From positions 1 to 53,122 of the forward strand of contig JAGWGN010000004.1 in the NCBI GenBank assembly GCA_028867335.1: a DNA stretch of 53,122 nt. Direction: 5' to 3'. The notes under the pieces were generated by a model. The model saw nothing but the letters and a program-made list of their open reading frames with translations. It searched no databases and was not told the DNA's origin. This DNA is from Microcaldota archaeon (GTDB lineage: Archaea > Micrarchaeota > Micrarchaeia > Micrarchaeales > CABMGC01). The position numbers and the translations under genes are program-made. Positions 8,489 to 27,637 of this stretch are shown one piece after another (position 1 is the stretch's first letter; each line of letters starts with the position of its first letter).

Positions 8489-8563
8489 GGGTGTGTGGCT
8501 CAACTTGGATAGAGCACTGGCTTGCGGAGCCAGAGGTTGCGGGTTCAAATCCCGTCACACCCG
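8489..8563 (+). tRNA. tRNA-Arg (anticodon GCG)
   Basis: A complete cloverleaf: acceptor stem GGGTGTG with CACACCC, discriminator G, anticodon stem CTGGC with GCCAG, loop TTGCGGA giving anticodon GCG, and a normal T loop TTCAAAT. CCA is not encoded. A TATA-like TTTAATATAC lies about 30 bases upstream. Confidence 0.95.
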
Positions 8564-11523: not shown

Positions 11524-11595
11524 GCACCTGTAGCTCAGTGGTAGAGCGCGTGCATGGTAAGCACGAGGTCGCGAGTCCAATTCTCGCCGGGTGCT
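11524..11595 (+). tRNA. tRNA-Thr (anticodon GGT)
   Basis: Acceptor stem GCACCTG with CGGGTGC, D arm with AGTGGTA, anticodon stem CGTGC with GCACG and loop ATGGTAA giving GGT. The G1-C72, C2-G71 pairs fit threonine identity. The T loop is TCCAATT, so position 55 is C instead of the usual T. A T-rich run (TTTCTTTTTTC) right after the gene is the likely terminator. Confidence 0.93.
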
Positions 11596-19992: not shown

Positions 19993-20238
19993 TCATCTTT
20001 TCTTATAAAAATGGTGAGCAACTATTACATTTGCCTTTATGCATCTTGTAACCCTTTTCACAGTATACATTATGTTTTGAAGTCCATCTTCAGCAACGGT
20101 TTCAACTGTTGCAACAAACCCAAATTCGCCGCTTGTCAAGAAGACACCCTTGACTCCTTTACATCTAGAAATTGCCTTGGCCATGCTATTGGCATCTGTT
20201 CTATCCCTTGGTTTCAAAAGTAAAAATCCTTTTTCCAT
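19993..20238 (-). CDS. Stand-alone Lrp/AsnC ligand-binding (RAM) domain
   Basis: An 81-residue protein consisting only of the Lrp/AsnC C-terminal effector-binding domain. Hallmarks are the first strand GFLLLKPRDR, ISRCKGVKGVFLTSGEFGFVATVE with the GxxD-like turn, and a final strand KANVIVAHHFY. There is no helix-turn-helix. Such stand-alone domains bind amino acids and can form mixed oligomers with full regulators. It is the left-hand gene of the AT-rich island, 42 bases beyond the NUDIX gene's stop and on the same strand. Confidence 0.8.
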   Translation of the reverse strand: MEKGFLLLKPRDRTDANSMAKAISRCKGVKGVFLTSGEFGFVATVETVAEDGLQNIMYTVKRVTRCIKANVIVAHHFYKKR

Positions 20239-20279
20239 GATATCACATTTACCTAATAAATTTACTGAGATCCTTCTGG

Positions 20280-20723
20280 TTAGCCCCAGAATTCATTCAG
20301 AACAGCATTAACATTATCCGTTATATTATAGTTATTTTTCTCCGCTTTGTTGACCCAGGCAAATGCGTCATGCTCACTCAGCTTAATATTTGAATCTTCA
20401 ACAGTTACTTCAAAATTAAATTGCCTTGTATTTTCGCCTTTTTTTGAGAGATAGTCAAAATTTCCTAAGTGTTTTTTTATTTTAAGAACTTTCATGCCAG
20501 TTTCCTCTAAGATCTCACGGCATAGAGCTTGAGGGAGAGTTTCATTATTCTCAACTTTTCCACTTGGCAACTCGTAAATTCCACCCATAAAATCATTTTT
20601 TGAGCGTCGTAGCAAAAGTGCCTTTCCCTCCTTAGAAACTACTCCCCCAACAACATACCTTGTTACTCCCTCTCCCTTTGCCTTGTCAACCAAGGATTTA
20701 CAAATTTCATCTATCTCGTTCAT
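20280..20723 (-). CDS. NUDIX hydrolase
   Basis: A 147-residue NUDIX protein with the full box G-x5-E-x7-REILEETG (residues about 55-77). It hydrolyses a nucleoside diphosphate linked to some other group, perhaps a sugar nucleotide or oxidised nucleotide. It is AT-rich like the rest of the island. Its ATG overlaps the stop of the aminotransferase gene by four bases, so it is the last coupled member of that operon. The GC content and codon choice differ from those of the second NUDIX gene at 46123. Confidence 0.87.
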   Translation of the reverse strand: MNEIDEICKSLVDKAKGEGVTRYVVGGVVSKEGKALLLRRSKNDFMGGIYELPSGKVENNETLPQALCREILEETGMKVLKIKKHLGNFDYLSKKGENTRQFNFEVTVEDSNIKLSEHDAFAWVNKAEKNNYNITDNVNAVLNEFWG

Positions 20724-21964
20724 AACAATTCCCTATAGTTAATAACAACTTTCTCAATAGTTTTCAGGTATAAATCAACAAAAACCTTGTCTTTTGAATC
20801 TGTCCAAACAGGTAGTTTGATCGTATTGTTGTAAAAGTCTTCTGCCATTGGGAATTGTTCGGGGGAGGGAGCTTTGTAACCATCAAAAAGCTCATTTGGA
20901 TTTTTGAATAGTGGAAGAGCATTCAAGGGGCACGTAGATTTTGGAATGTCTGCCTCACTGCAGCCTTCCGCCTTAAGTGCTTTGTAGAACTTTTCTATTT
21001 CTAATCCCCCAAGTTCCTTAGACTTATACCTAAAAAGATATGCATACCAAGAAGGTTTCTTATAACTTGGAACATCCAATGTTTCAACACCTGCCATATC
21101 CTTTAGGAAATTATTCATCAGATTGGCAAAGATTCTTTTTTGCCTCAGCCATTCATTTAAATGTGGGAATTGCTCATGTATTATTGCAGCTGCTAAAGGA
21201 TGTACTCTTAACTTGAAACCCATACCAGTCACCCCAAACTTGTATAGAGGCGAATCCTTTTCTATTTCTTGCAATGCACGTTTATTATAGTGGCCCAGTA
21301 GGATTGCCTTGTCATACATTTCCTTATCGTCGGTTAAAAATACTCCCCCCTCCCCACCAGTTAATATCTTCTGCCCTTGAAGGCTTGCAGCAGCACTATT
21401 CCCAAAAGATCCTGTCAATTTGCCTTTGAATTCTGCGCCATGAGAATGAGAAAAATCTTCAAATAACATTAAGCCATGCCTTTCCGCAATCTCACATATC
21501 TCATCCATGTCACATGGTATGCCCCACATATGGGTTACTGATATGGCCTTTGTCTTCTTCGTTATTTTCTTTTCTATTGCCTTTGGGTCAATATTTCCTG
21601 TAACAGATTCAGCATCACATAGGATGGGTATAGCCCCAATAAAGAATAAGGGAGTTACTGATGCTGGGAAATTGTAGACAGGAACAATTACCTCATCACC
21701 TTTTTTCAACCCGGCAGAAACAAACATTGTATAAAGAGCCATAGTACCGGAATTGATTAATAACGCATATTTTCTCTTGTAATAATTTGCCAATTGTTTC
21801 TCAACATCATCAATTATCCCAGACTTATCATAAATAGAGATGGTTTTATGGAGTTGCTCCAAAACAGCATTTTCAGTCTCTTTACTTATTACAGGCCACA
21901 TGTAATGGGGTTGTTCTATTTGTATAGCTTTAGGACCTCCAAATATTGCAAGTTTACTGTCCAT
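20720..21964 (-). CDS. DegT/DnrJ/EryC1/StrS-type aminotransferase
   Basis: A 414-residue PLP-dependent aminotransferase of the sugar/cyclitol family. It begins LAIFGGPKAI and has NSGTMALYTMF and EDFSHSHGAEFKG. The PLP lysine is in SLQGQKILTGGEGG near residue 205. The length and N terminus recall members that aminate keto-sugars or scyllo-inosose (NtdA, StsC, AHBA-synthase types), not the shorter WbpE type. Together with the upstream Gfo/Idh dehydrogenase it would oxidise a hydroxyl and then aminate the ketone. The first ten bases overlap the dehydrogenase gene. Strongly AT-rich. Confidence 0.9.
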   Translation of the reverse strand: MDSKLAIFGGPKAIQIEQPHYMWPVISKETENAVLEQLHKTISIYDKSGIIDDVEKQLANYYKRKYALLINSGTMALYTMFVSAGLKKGDEVIVPVYNFPASVTPLFFIGAIPILCDAESVTGNIDPKAIEKKITKKTKAISVTHMWGIPCDMDEICEIAERHGLMLFEDFSHSHGAEFKGKLTGSFGNSAAASLQGQKILTGGEGGVFLTDDKEMYDKAILLGHYNKRALQEIEKDSPLYKFGVTGMGFKLRVHPLAAAIIHEQFPHLNEWLRQKRIFANLMNNFLKDMAGVETLDVPSYKKPSWYAYLFRYKSKELGGLEIEKFYKALKAEGCSEADIPKSTCPLNALPLFKNPNELFDGYKAPSPEQFPMAEDFYNNTIKLPVWTDSKDKVFVDLYLKTIEKVVINYRELL

Positions 21965-22997
21965 TCAACACCTCTTTCACATTCACATACCTGCCCAATA
22001 ATTTCGAATGATAGCAAGCCTCTATAAAAGCCATATTATTTAACTGTGCTTCTACTGAGCAGTGATTTTCACTTTCGCCTCTAACCACTTTGCAAAAATA
22101 TTCTATCTGTGAAGGACCTGATAACAGAGATTCGTTTTCGTGACTTAAAGTTTCAACTAACTGACCGTCATTTTTAAATCTCCTAATCCGATCATTCTCA
22201 ATTTCTATGCGTCCATTCCTACCAACTATCTTAAATTGCTCTGTTTTGGGAGGTATGTATCTTGAAAAACTCAAAATTCCATTTAATTTTCTATCGGTGT
22301 AAGTAAACATTATACTTGCCGTGTCCTCAGCGTCATATTTTGGCATTGCTTTTGCATATGCCGAAAAATCTGCATGCACAAAATCTGGAAGACCAAAATA
22401 CCAGATCAGCAAGTCAATTATGTGATAGCCCATATCGATTATTACGCCACCTCCTGCAGATTCTTTTTTGCCTCGCCACCCCTCTCCTGGATTTTCCACG
22501 AACATACTATATTTTCCTTCTAGATAGAAGGGTTTTCCGATTAGATCAAGTAGATTGAAAAATGCAGAATAAATTGGATTAAACCTACGTTGGAGAGTTA
22601 CCATTAGATGAATCTTGTTTTGTGCCACAATTCGTTTCAATTCAAATGCCTCTTTCAAATTCATCGACAGGGGCTTTTCCTTTAGTATGTGTATGCCTTT
22701 TGAAGCAATTTCGATTATGACGCTCTTATATTCGCAATGTGGCACACAGACTATAGCAAAATCTGGGAGCGTATCTTCCAGCATTTTAGATAAGTTAGTA
22801 TAAATTGGAATTGAAAATTCTAATCCAACAGAGTCCAAATTTCCCTTATTTACATGGTCGCATAGACCAACTAATTCTACATTCTCAGAACTTAAAACAG
22901 CAGGCACATACTCCTTGATTGCTTGGTGTCCTATGCCAACAATTACTGCTTTCAGTTTTCGACCAGTTTTGTTACTCTCATTTTCTTCGCTGACCAT
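21954..22997 (-). CDS. Gfo/Idh/MocA-family oxidoreductase
   Basis: A 347-residue NAD(P)-dependent dehydrogenase. The Rossmann fold starts with AVIVGIGHQAI, the family signature KEKPLSMN is near residue 93, and the C-terminal half has GGGVIIDMGYHIIDLLIWYFG with the catalytic D and H. It oxidises a hydroxyl of a sugar, sugar nucleotide or inositol. I start it at the ATG 22997, preceded by Shine-Dalgarno AGGTGGGG; a GTG at 23006 is the alternative. It is followed at once by the aminotransferase that would use its keto product. AT-rich. Confidence 0.9.
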   Translation of the reverse strand: MVSEENESNKTGRKLKAVIVGIGHQAIKEYVPAVLSSENVELVGLCDHVNKGNLDSVGLEFSIPIYTNLSKMLEDTLPDFAIVCVPHCEYKSVIIEIASKGIHILKEKPLSMNLKEAFELKRIVAQNKIHLMVTLQRRFNPIYSAFFNLLDLIGKPFYLEGKYSMFVENPGEGWRGKKESAGGGVIIDMGYHIIDLLIWYFGLPDFVHADFSAYAKAMPKYDAEDTASIMFTYTDRKLNGILSFSRYIPPKTEQFKIVGRNGRIEIENDRIRRFKNDGQLVETLSHENESLLSGPSQIEYFCKVVRGESENHCSVEAQLNNMAFIEACYHSKLLGRYVNVKEVLNGQ

Positions 22998-23014
22998 ATT
23001 CCCCACCTTTTGAC

Positions 23015-23176
23015 TTAGCTTTCGTATTTTTTGAGTATCTGCTCGATTTCATTCATCAGCGTCTGCAGCCGATCAAAGTCGCTGTAGTTCACAAAGGCAA
23101 AGAGCTTCTGAACCTTGAACCTGAGTCCGCTAAGGTCTGCAATCCGCCTGCGAATATAAGCGTAGTAGTTCATCAT
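23015..23176 (-). CDS. Microprotein B, paralogue of the next gene
   Basis: A 53-residue helical protein, MMNYYAYIRRRIAD at the N terminus and FDRLQTLMNEIEQILKKYES at the C terminus. The C-terminal half matches microprotein A in spacing (D-x2-RL-x2-L-x2-E-x-E-x2-L-x-K). Shine-Dalgarno GGTGAT lies five bases before the ATG, only six bases after the stop of microprotein A, and the Gfo/Idh gene follows at once. It is less AT-rich than the metabolic genes around it. No function recognised; a helical-hairpin binder or toxin/antitoxin-like component is possible. Confidence 0.65.
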   Translation of the reverse strand: MMNYYAYIRRRIADLSGLRFKVQKLFAFVNYSDFDRLQTLMNEIEQILKKYES

Positions 23177-23181
23177 ATCAC

Positions 23182-23337
23182 CTATTTGTGCTTTGAAAGC
23201 AGTATCTCAGCCTCGTCTACCAACTGCTTGAGGCGGTAATAGTCGTTTCTGGGAAGGAAGTCATAGACTTCAGGCAATTTCTGCTTTACCGCAGTGATCT
23301 TATCCAGCATTTCCTTGGTGGTTTCGTAGGGATTCAT
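23182..23337 (-). CDS. Microprotein A, paralogue of the gene downstream
   Basis: A 51-residue helical protein beginning MNPYETTKEMLDKIT and ending YYRLKQLVDEAEILLSKHK. The C-terminal helix aligns with microprotein B. Its ATG overlaps the TGA of the zinc-finger ORF in ATGA and is preceded by the Shine-Dalgarno-like GGTGA, so translation is well supported. Two short helices separated by FLPRND are likely. Function unknown; not seen in any family I know. Confidence 0.65.
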   Translation of the reverse strand: MNPYETTKEMLDKITAVKQKLPEVYDFLPRNDYYRLKQLVDEAEILLSKHK

Positions 23338-23627
23338 ATTGTCACCGAATTTTCAGGTGTTGGAGTTTCAGTTATAGAATATTGGCTTATCATGCTGCAG
23401 AATTGGATATGCCAAAGGAAGTCTGCGGGATCTGGATATGAATTCTGGCATCCCCAACAGTCGTAAGTCTTTTGGGGATTTGTCTTCCTGCCTGGAAAGA
23501 CAAATGAGATGAATTTGGATAGTAGGGGTGGAAGGATATGGGAACCCTGTCTTGTGGGTTTCTTTAGGGAGTAAAGAAAAGTCGTATCGCCAAGCCTTGG
23601 GAAGGCACTGGCTGTCTTGGTCCCCAT
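23334..23627 (-). CDS. Possible C2HC zinc-finger protein (overlaps structured RNA)
   Basis: A 97-residue frame whose C-terminal half has exact C2H2-type spacing with a final cysteine: C-x2-C-x3-Y-x5-F-x2-H-x3-C (YDCWGCQNSY, then DFLWHIQFC). The TGA overlaps the ATG of microprotein A, and GAGG lies just before the ATG, which favours translation. Against it, the first 50 residues look unlike a normal protein and the same DNA folds into six hairpins on this strand, with the ATG inside the first stem. It may be a real coupled gene, a dual-function RNA, or a chance frame. Confidence 0.45.
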   Translation of the reverse strand: MGTKTASAFPRLGDTTFLYSLKKPTRQGSHILPPLLSKFISFVFPGRKTNPQKTYDCWGCQNSYPDPADFLWHIQFCSMISQYSITETPTPENSVTI

Positions 23628-23636
23628 ATTCCTCTA
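23398..23636 (-). ncRNA. Candidate structured RNA or leader with six stems
   Basis: Minus-strand stems, in order. P1 pairs 23619-23632 with 23534-23546 (GGAAUAUGGGGACC with GGUUCCCAUAUCC). P2 at 23589-23612 is GCCA...UGGC plus GCCUU/AAGGC. P3 at 23559-23579 is UUUCUUUA/UAAAGAAA. P4 at 23478-23505 has eleven pairs and one bulge. P5 at 23450-23479 is AUCCCCAA/UUGGGGAU. P6 at 23398-23447 is CAGAAUU/AAUUCUG plus inner pairs. P1 encloses P2 and P3, a three-way junction. One G-U pair in P1 and one in P2 would be A-C on the other strand. A TATA box CTATATAT near 23662 places the 5' end at about 23636, four bases before P1. Confidence 0.55.
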
Positions 23637-23727
23637 ACATATTATGAATTGCCTCTCATATATAGACTATCCAAAATTATATGTTAAATTTTAAATATAA
23701 TCTTTTAAAAAATGAAATATTAGCTTA

Positions 23728-23741
23728 CTATATGTATATAG
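23728..23741. promoter_or_regulatory. Near-palindromic operator candidate between the divergent island genes
   Basis: CTATATGTATATAG is symmetric at 12 of 14 positions. It lies in the very AT-rich 23641-23807 gap, between the minus-strand promoter near 23662 and the start of the duplicated Lrp regulator at 23808. That regulator is the obvious candidate to bind it. AT-rich context makes chance symmetry likely enough to keep this tentative. Confidence 0.3.
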
Positions 23742-23807
23742 CACGCAAAGTTAGGTTTTTATATTCATATTACCTTAGAATTATGTAAAAATTAATAATT
23801 TGATTCT

Positions 23808-24902
23808 ATGAATGAATCGGAAGTGGAAAACAAAATTATAACGCAGCTCAGCATGGACTGTAGAACCAGCGTCGATAAAATGGCGCCTTCTGTTGGACTG
23901 ACAAGGGATCAGGTGTATGGAAGGACAAAGAAGCTCATAGAAAAATATGATGTGCGTTTTGTGCCGCAGATAAGCATCTCGAACCTTCAAAAGTACGAAT
24001 TTTTGGGAATTAGTTGGGGCAAGTCAAAACGTGAGATACTTAGCAAGATCTCAGAAGACAACATCGAGATAGGTTTTGAGGAATATATTGCTCTAATTGA
24101 TTTCAAGGGCGGCGAGCCCAGTGACAAGGAAATACTTGATGCTCTTGGAGATTCCTATATTCCCCAGTATGTGGCAAGGATTTCTGGCCAGCACAACCTA
24201 GTCATATATGCCATCGCAAGGCACTCATCAGATATAACAGAATTTATGTACAAATTCATGAATAAATTAGATAAATTTAATTCAATAGAAAGACTACAAT
24301 TCATATATCCAAGTTTCGGCTTTTTCCCGATAAATAACAAATTAATTGAGCAAATACATATACAACCTAGGTACAAAAAGATGCTACTTTTGTTGAATTC
24401 GAATGCGAAAGCAGAATTTTCCAGTTTGACAAAAGAAATGGGAGGAATCTCAGCAGCAACTGTAGGAGTACTTTATGCAAGGCTAAAGGAAATAGGTTTG
24501 CTTGAAAGACCAACTTTGTATCTAATAAAACCGGAAGAATTGATAATAAAATTATTCATATTCTCAATAGTTGATCGGCAGAAATTTGGAAAAAACAGGG
24601 ATAAATTTCTACTCGATTTTGTTAACGATAAGATTAAAAATTATATCTTTATGGCAACAATAAGAAACCCTGGTGGGGGCATAATTTTTGCTAGGTTTAA
24701 AACTCCCTTAGAAGTCGAAGATTTTAAGAAAAGTTTTAGTAATATAGACTGGGGTATAGAGCTATCTGAATCCACTGTATTACAAAATATATATGGCAAC
24801 TTGGGTGTAAGAAATTTTTTGCCAGAAGAAACAATGCAATACAAAGAATTAGAATCAAAAGGCTTGGTTGGAAAAGTAAATAAATCAAAACCTAAAAAAT
24901 GA
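23808..24902 (+). CDS. Duplicated Lrp/AsnC-type regulator (HTH-RAM-HTH-RAM)
   Basis: A 364-residue regulator that looks like two Lrp units fused head to tail. The first helix-turn-helix is at about 5-45 (IITQLSMDCRTSVDKMAPSV...LTRDQVYGRTKKLIEK) and the first ligand-binding domain at about 55-165. A second winged-helix region follows at about 185-230 (MLLLLNSNAKAEFSSLTKEM, then VLYARLKEIGLLERP) and a second ligand-binding-like domain at about 235-335. It is AT-rich and divergent from the microprotein and amino-sugar operon, so it is the likely local regulator of that operon. Confidence 0.75.
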   Translation: MNESEVENKIITQLSMDCRTSVDKMAPSVGLTRDQVYGRTKKLIEKYDVRFVPQISISNLQKYEFLGISWGKSKREILSKISEDNIEIGFEEYIALIDFKGGEPSDKEILDALGDSYIPQYVARISGQHNLVIYAIARHSSDITEFMYKFMNKLDKFNSIERLQFIYPSFGFFPINNKLIEQIHIQPRYKKMLLLLNSNAKAEFSSLTKEMGGISAATVGVLYARLKEIGLLERPTLYLIKPEELIIKLFIFSIVDRQKFGKNRDKFLLDFVNDKIKNYIFMATIRNPGGGIIFARFKTPLEVEDFKKSFSNIDWGIELSESTVLQNIYGNLGVRNFLPEETMQYKELESKGLVGKVNKSKPKK

Positions 24903-27566: not shown

Positions 27567-27637
27567 GGGCTCGTGGTCCAGTGGTAAGACGTTACCCTCA
27601 CACGGTAAAGACAGGAGTCCGATTCTCCTCGGGCCCA
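27567..27637 (+). tRNA. tRNA-Val (anticodon CAC)
   Basis: Acceptor stem GGGCTCG with CGGGCCC, discriminator A, anticodon stem TTACC with GGTAA and loop CTCACAC giving CAC. The T stem AGGAG/CTCCT closes the loop TCCGATT, with C at position 55 as in the tRNA-Thr of this window. A TATA-like TATTTATTTG lies about 25-30 bases upstream. Confidence 0.93.

Follow-up and report, generated by a model that had tools for sequence, protein, structure and literature searches.

Which part of the 5' end of an archaeal microprotein operon acts as RNA, and what might that RNA do? The question arises from a 53,122-nt stretch of a Microcaldota archaeon genome (the window), in which the original prediction described a block of about 240 nt with six stems as one candidate structured RNA. 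Here, we report that the 5' ~105 nt of the window transcript are a conserved structured leader, probably an undescribed RNA control element.

Leader and zinc-finger gene within the block

We refolded both strands of the block and recovered the named stems on the minus strand at about the predicted coordinates. The minus strand of 23398-23640 reached -69 kcal/mol (z -3.3), with 1 of 200 shuffles equally good, compared with a z of only -1.4 for the plus strand. Together with the G-U pairs in P1 and P2, this bears out the minus strand as the folded one. The signal was concentrated in the 5' half, where 111 nt alone gave z -3.9; the 3' 136 nt folded alone gave z -2.2. In the minus-strand fold, P1 joins 23634-23619 with 23546-23532 through 15 pairs with one bulge. 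A TATA box and a transcript start a few bases ahead of the first stem, which had also been proposed, are plausible from the promoter letters. The features of the locus are listed below.

23532-23636, minus strand: structured leader RNA of ~105 nt, running from the predicted start of transcription through the 3' strand of P1, with outer stem P1 around P2 and P3; supported by fold z, homologues, consensus fold and an independent model
23619-23634, minus strand: 5' strand of P1, GAGGAAUAUGGGGACC
23532-23546, minus strand: 3' strand of P1, GGUUCCCAUAUCCUU
23589-23612, minus strand: hairpin P2, kept in the C2 copy with one pair changed from G-U to A-U
23559-23579, minus strand: P3, a perfect 8-pair hairpin with a constant loop and a variable stem sequence
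23567-23571, minus strand: exposed CUCCC loop of P3
23631-23634, minus strand: Shine-Dalgarno-like GAGG inside the 5' strand of P1
23625-23627, minus strand: AUG inside the 5' strand of P1
23640-23646, minus strand: CATAATA element, recurring at the equivalent place in most related leaders
23655-23666, minus strand: promoter TATA box, placed alike in most other leaders
23334-23627, minus strand: frame of 97 codons, starting in P1 and ending in a zinc finger
23397-23465, minus strand: zinc finger C-x2-C-x12-H-x3-C, YDCWGCQNSYPDPADFLWHIQFC, homologous to microproteins of paralogous operons
23182-23337, minus strand: gene for a 51-aa microprotein with paralogues
23015-23176, minus strand: gene for a 53-aa microprotein, with one close paralogue per leader in its own genome
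22995-23007, minus strand: GGTGGGG-ATG start of a GFO/IDH/MocA gene
23808-24902, plus strand: divergent Lrp/AsnC-like regulator paired with the leader, in a layout equal to that of C2, C60 and C54

The GC-richer block does contrast with AT-rich intergenic DNA, as originally noted, but it is merely the leader plus coding DNA. The 97-codon frame opens with an ATG at 23627 and closes with a stop at 23334-23336; four bases, ATGA, are shared with the start of the 51-aa gene. Its finger, YDCWGCQNSYPDPADFLWHIQFC, fits the C2H2/C2HC pattern (C-x2-C-x12-H-x3-C with hydrophobic core positions). Homologues of the finger were found in its own genome (E 2e-11 to 2e-8), matches were present in 10 of 60 genomes, and no Pfam model was found for it at E 1 or better. 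A protein-coding signal, in the form of these homologues, was present for the 3' half and speaks against the original proposal there.

The stems of the 3' half (23394-23529) were not preserved in paralogues. From its 36 predicted pairs, 16-20 of 33-36 were retained in four codon-aligned homologous zinc-finger genes, about equal to the 38-55% of pairs found in unrelated columns when a structure was slid out of register. As only about half of these pairs persist in homologues, chance within a coding sequence is the best account of the 3' stems at 23450-23505. The view that the entire 240-nt block is one structured non-coding RNA can draw on the z of the whole block (-3.3) and on 3' stems that are perfect or nearly so. 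We consider it extremely improbable, since the 3' half is a zinc finger with homologous genes, its stems are lost in them, and the leader is followed by different coding sequence in other operons (contigs C2, C60 and C54); for the 3' half it is largely refuted. The 3' half (23394-23529) is coding sequence of a C2HC zinc finger and lies outside the RNA. What survives of the six-stem proposal is the 5' ~105 nt, the outer stem and two hairpins, which are conserved.

A conserved fold ahead of paralogous operons

Three further copies of the leader were found in the window's own genome (G000), on contigs C2, C60 and C54. All four leaders are flanked by a divergent Lrp/AsnC-like regulator on one side and by an operon of ~50-aa microproteins on the other. 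Over 113 nt, the C2 copy shares 83% identity with the window leader, and it is followed by the 53-aa gene, not the zinc finger; the C60 and C54 leaders hardly resemble the window leader in sequence. P1 enclosing P2 and P3 is the fold of all four (z -3.9, -4.4, -3.6 and -5.3), each exceeding its shuffled controls on the transcribed strand, and the complement strands fold more weakly. The consensus fold of the four copies reached -22.7 kcal/mol (z -14.2), whereas column-shuffled alignments gave -1.5 ± 1.5; on the reverse complement of the alignment z was -4.6, and SCI was 0.59 on the transcribed strand vs. 0.30 reversed. A model built from C60 and C54 only returned the window leader as its best match in 75 kb (23.4 bits, E 4e-4), with C2 second.

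Substitutions between the copies preserve the helices, although four close rows give this observation limited power. Between the window and C2, nearly all changes in P1 and P2 either preserve the pair (G-U to A-U, G-U to G-C, U-A to U-G) or remove both partners, one P1 pair being absent on both sides. The P1 core UGGGGAC:GUYCCC is constant, and its flanks vary in pairs (e.g., A-U to G-C). The P3 loop is CUCCC or UUCCC, a fixed YUCCC predicted to be fully unpaired in all four own-genome copies. Beside this loop, the P3 stem reads UUUA/UAAA or UUCA/UGAA, with a paired change from U-A to C-G; farther out, C-G, A-U, U-A and G-C alternate, and hand alignment of C60 from the loop gives C-G to A-U and U-A to G-C. 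The observed pairing and covariation only mildly exceeded 3'-letter shuffles on the four rows, 15-19 of 500 of which reached them.

The position is equally constant. All four leaders lie before a 53-aa/zinc-finger operon, a leader precedes all four close 53-aa gene copies of this genome, and a model search found no additional leader elsewhere in it. On the evidence of four sequences from one genome, of which two share 83% identity, together with structurally looser leaders of one other species, the fold, the transcribed strand and the position of the leader before its operon are conserved. The proposal of a structured RNA at the 5' end of the microprotein operon was thus upheld by three own-genome copies with an equal fold retained through paired changes.

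The same inverted repeats could be read as DNA operators for the divergent Lrp/AsnC-like regulator. Such a regulator adjoins every own-genome copy, and binding of palindromic DNA is a general trait of Lrp-family proteins. However, the transcribed strand consistently folds better than its complement, P1 and P2 contain G-U pairs, and the arms of P1 lie ~70 nt apart and downstream of the predicted start site, which makes an operator very unlikely.

In a second species of the genus (G003), several operons of this kind occur, and leaders occupy the equivalent place after the promoter. These leaders start with GGUGGGG, and their P1 is closed by other base pairs (differing at positions 5-7); the UGGGG of the P1 5' strand is invariant across 11 leaders. 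The G003 leaders form three sequence classes. The full class A stretch gave z -3.8. In class B, z ranged from -1.6, in one weakly folding leader, to -4.1, with a consensus z of -5.2; class C leaders also fold weakly (z about -1.5 to -2.0). YUCCC is exposed in all of them except L041. Because their interiors differ from those of the window-genome leaders, what they share with these is an overall layout, short of a demonstrated common fold. The promoter pattern ATAATA-N-GTGGGG recovered the known leaders and one extra class C copy (L060); other sites with this pattern were unrelated, including a tRNA-like stretch in G001.

We searched for known families using Rfam 15 (4227 families), taking each family's gathering cut-off as the criterion. 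Neither the region nor nine homologous loci matched any Rfam family at that cut-off, in line with the original impression of an unrecognised RNA; relaxed matches to CRISPR-DR55, SNORA64 and mir-2574 fell far below their own cut-offs. The window's only Rfam matches are three tRNA genes (8489-8563, 11524-11595 and 27567-27637). Model R1 found no leader in 59 other genomes, giving one chance match in G016 without the operon. Run against the genomes of the genus, model R2 passed just the two sequences it was built from, although it recovered the window leader in a smaller search. All leader copies, small in number, come from a single genus. No relatives of the 97-aa and 53-aa proteins were found in a collection of genome contigs, nor of the 53-aa protein in viral contigs. 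PADLOC and NCBIfam returned no defence or named family for the microproteins; the cassette microproteins match no curated family.

The surrounding genes form a multi-copy cassette, located at 19993-24902 in the window, on contigs C2, C60 and C54 of G000, and in G003, with four copies in G000, about eight in G003 and few if any in the remaining species of the genus. Its order is a divergent Lrp/AsnC-like regulator, 51-57-aa and 53-aa microproteins, a C2HC zinc-finger microprotein, a RAM-only Lrp-like protein and variable cargo (GFO/IDH/MocA, DegT and Nudix in the window). Paralogous Lrp-like regulators at L017, L018, L019, L022, L023 and L024 carry an extra N-terminal domain of ~60 aa (...YYLYK...YLGRITDEG...) that the window regulator lacks. 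In the C2 operon, positions 2170-2340 of L004 contain six N flanked by a repeated ~70-base stretch, resembling an assembly join.

Candidate start codon and reading frame within the leader

In the window, the zinc-finger frame has just one start codon of any kind upstream of the finger, the ATG in the outer helix P1. The AUG had an unpaired probability of 0.00-0.03 in all four copies; it is fully paired in P1 in the window and paired in P2 in C60 and C54. The Shine-Dalgarno-like GAGG is also paired up in two copies. The 16S rRNA of this genome (archaeal, match of 1383 bits) ends in GATCACCTC; therefore, the GAGG at 23631-23634, which lies in P1 too, can act as a Shine-Dalgarno sequence.

An ATG near the leader start opens a frame beyond the P1 3' strand in all four copies, vs. 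4-12% of shuffles for each. This observation favors a different view, in which the leader is mainly a short upstream gene for a 33-38-codon leader peptide that in the window is joined to the zinc finger, and the fold is secondary. Three class C leaders, whose first 19 codons differ only synonymously (counted by eye), point the same way. However, the differences between the window and C2 in the aligned first 23 codons all change amino acids, class B leaders contain a 2-nt indel and one class C copy a 1-nt indel within the frame, the class A leader has no ATG at the equivalent place, and the YUCCC loop is preserved across different reading frames. We therefore judge an upstream gene unlikely as the main role. 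Translation beginning at the leader AUG is plausible, whereas selection on the peptide is unproven given the variable residues and the indels that break the frame.

As for a leader-peptide attenuator, we found neither conserved residues or frame nor a shared terminator tract among the leaders. In all four leaders, one frame terminates at the P3 loop with TTY AYT CCC TRA (F-[T/I]-P-stop), and a TTG/ATG lies nine codons before this end (23590-23565 on the minus strand of the window, and the equivalent place in L004, L016 and L022). This Pro-stop resembles TnaC-type stalling peptides and is absent from G003.

Proposed translational gating and relation to known systems

On balance, we consider it somewhat probable that the structured RNA is a cis-acting leader gating translation through its buried start site, with coupled translation of the microproteins. 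The leader would belong to a regulatory cassette comprising the divergent Lrp-like regulator, the leader itself and the microprotein, zinc-finger and RAM genes. P1 (P2 in two copies) would hide the AUG of the frame starting inside the leader and, in two copies, the GAGG as well. We infer that the leader is transcribed and that closed helices keep translation of the leader frame and the coupled downstream microprotein genes low; a ligand, a protein, temperature or a competing RNA segment might open the helices and raise translation. Against gating counts the finding that the downstream ribosome sites in C2, C60 and C54 fall outside the structure.

Since P1 forms the very first part of the predicted transcript, it could alternatively serve as a 5' stability hairpin, or the leader could be processed into a small RNA with trans targets; its exposed YUCCC loop could pair with GGGR sequences. 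With the leader strictly placed before one operon type and no terminator tract common to all leaders at the 3' end of P1, such a role appears highly improbable as a replacement for the translational gate.

An extension of the gate concerns the GGTGGGG-ATG starts, of which the genome has 10, with one per leader operon. Those of the other leader operons lie at C2:9589, C54:49259 and C60:14042, and the gene they start is a RAM gene in C2, C60 and C54 and the GFO/IDH/MocA gene in the window. Their GGGG extends past what the 16S anti-Shine-Dalgarno needs. The P1 5' strand (GUGGGGAC/GGUGGGG) would copy this downstream ribosome-binding site of the same operon; the P1 3' strand could therefore pair with either. 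When the P1 3' strand was compared against the GGUGGGG starts, other starts paired as strongly in 0/64 cases for C54, 1/64 for C60, 4 for the window and 7 for C2; this post hoc pairing is only suggestive, and moderate in the window and C2. The leader could then be a two-state switch whose P1 3' strand (GUYCCCAY) alternates between the leader and the distant GGUGGGG-ATG, one RNA setting cargo translation and being copied along with a mobile-looking microprotein cassette whose cargo genes vary. We hold this version distinctly unlikely.

The gated leader resembles leaders that hide ribosome-binding sites (translational riboswitches, RNA thermometers and ribosomal-protein leaders) in its 5' operon position, in a helix over the start region and in a loop sequence more constant than the stem sequence; it differs in matching none of the 4227 Rfam families and in its very narrow distribution. 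It shares with tna/trp-type leader-peptide attenuators a short frame in a structured leader (the F-[T/I]-P-stop frame at the P3 loop in 4/4), but the peptide is not conserved in G003 and there is no shared terminator. To our knowledge, no leader-peptide attenuator system is established in archaea, and we are aware of few cis-acting structured RNAs described there. In the literature, we found no cis-acting structured RNA reported for such a multi-copy microprotein cassette. If real, the leader would offer a small, testable example of RNA-level control in an archaeon with a small genome, and could serve as a marker when searching for microprotein cassettes.

Comparative genomics of bacteria and archaea has yielded candidate structured RNAs (Weinberg et al. 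2010, PMC2864571) and ribosomal leader candidates (PMC7247131). The evidence here is alike in kind, namely a conserved fold upstream of homologous genes with paired substitutions, but rests on four paralogues in one genome and looser leaders of a second species. The crcB (fluoride) motif is a riboswitch class present in archaea (PMC2864571); the present leader differs from it in having no Rfam match and other genes downstream, and is like it in being a structured RNA in archaeal 5' UTRs.
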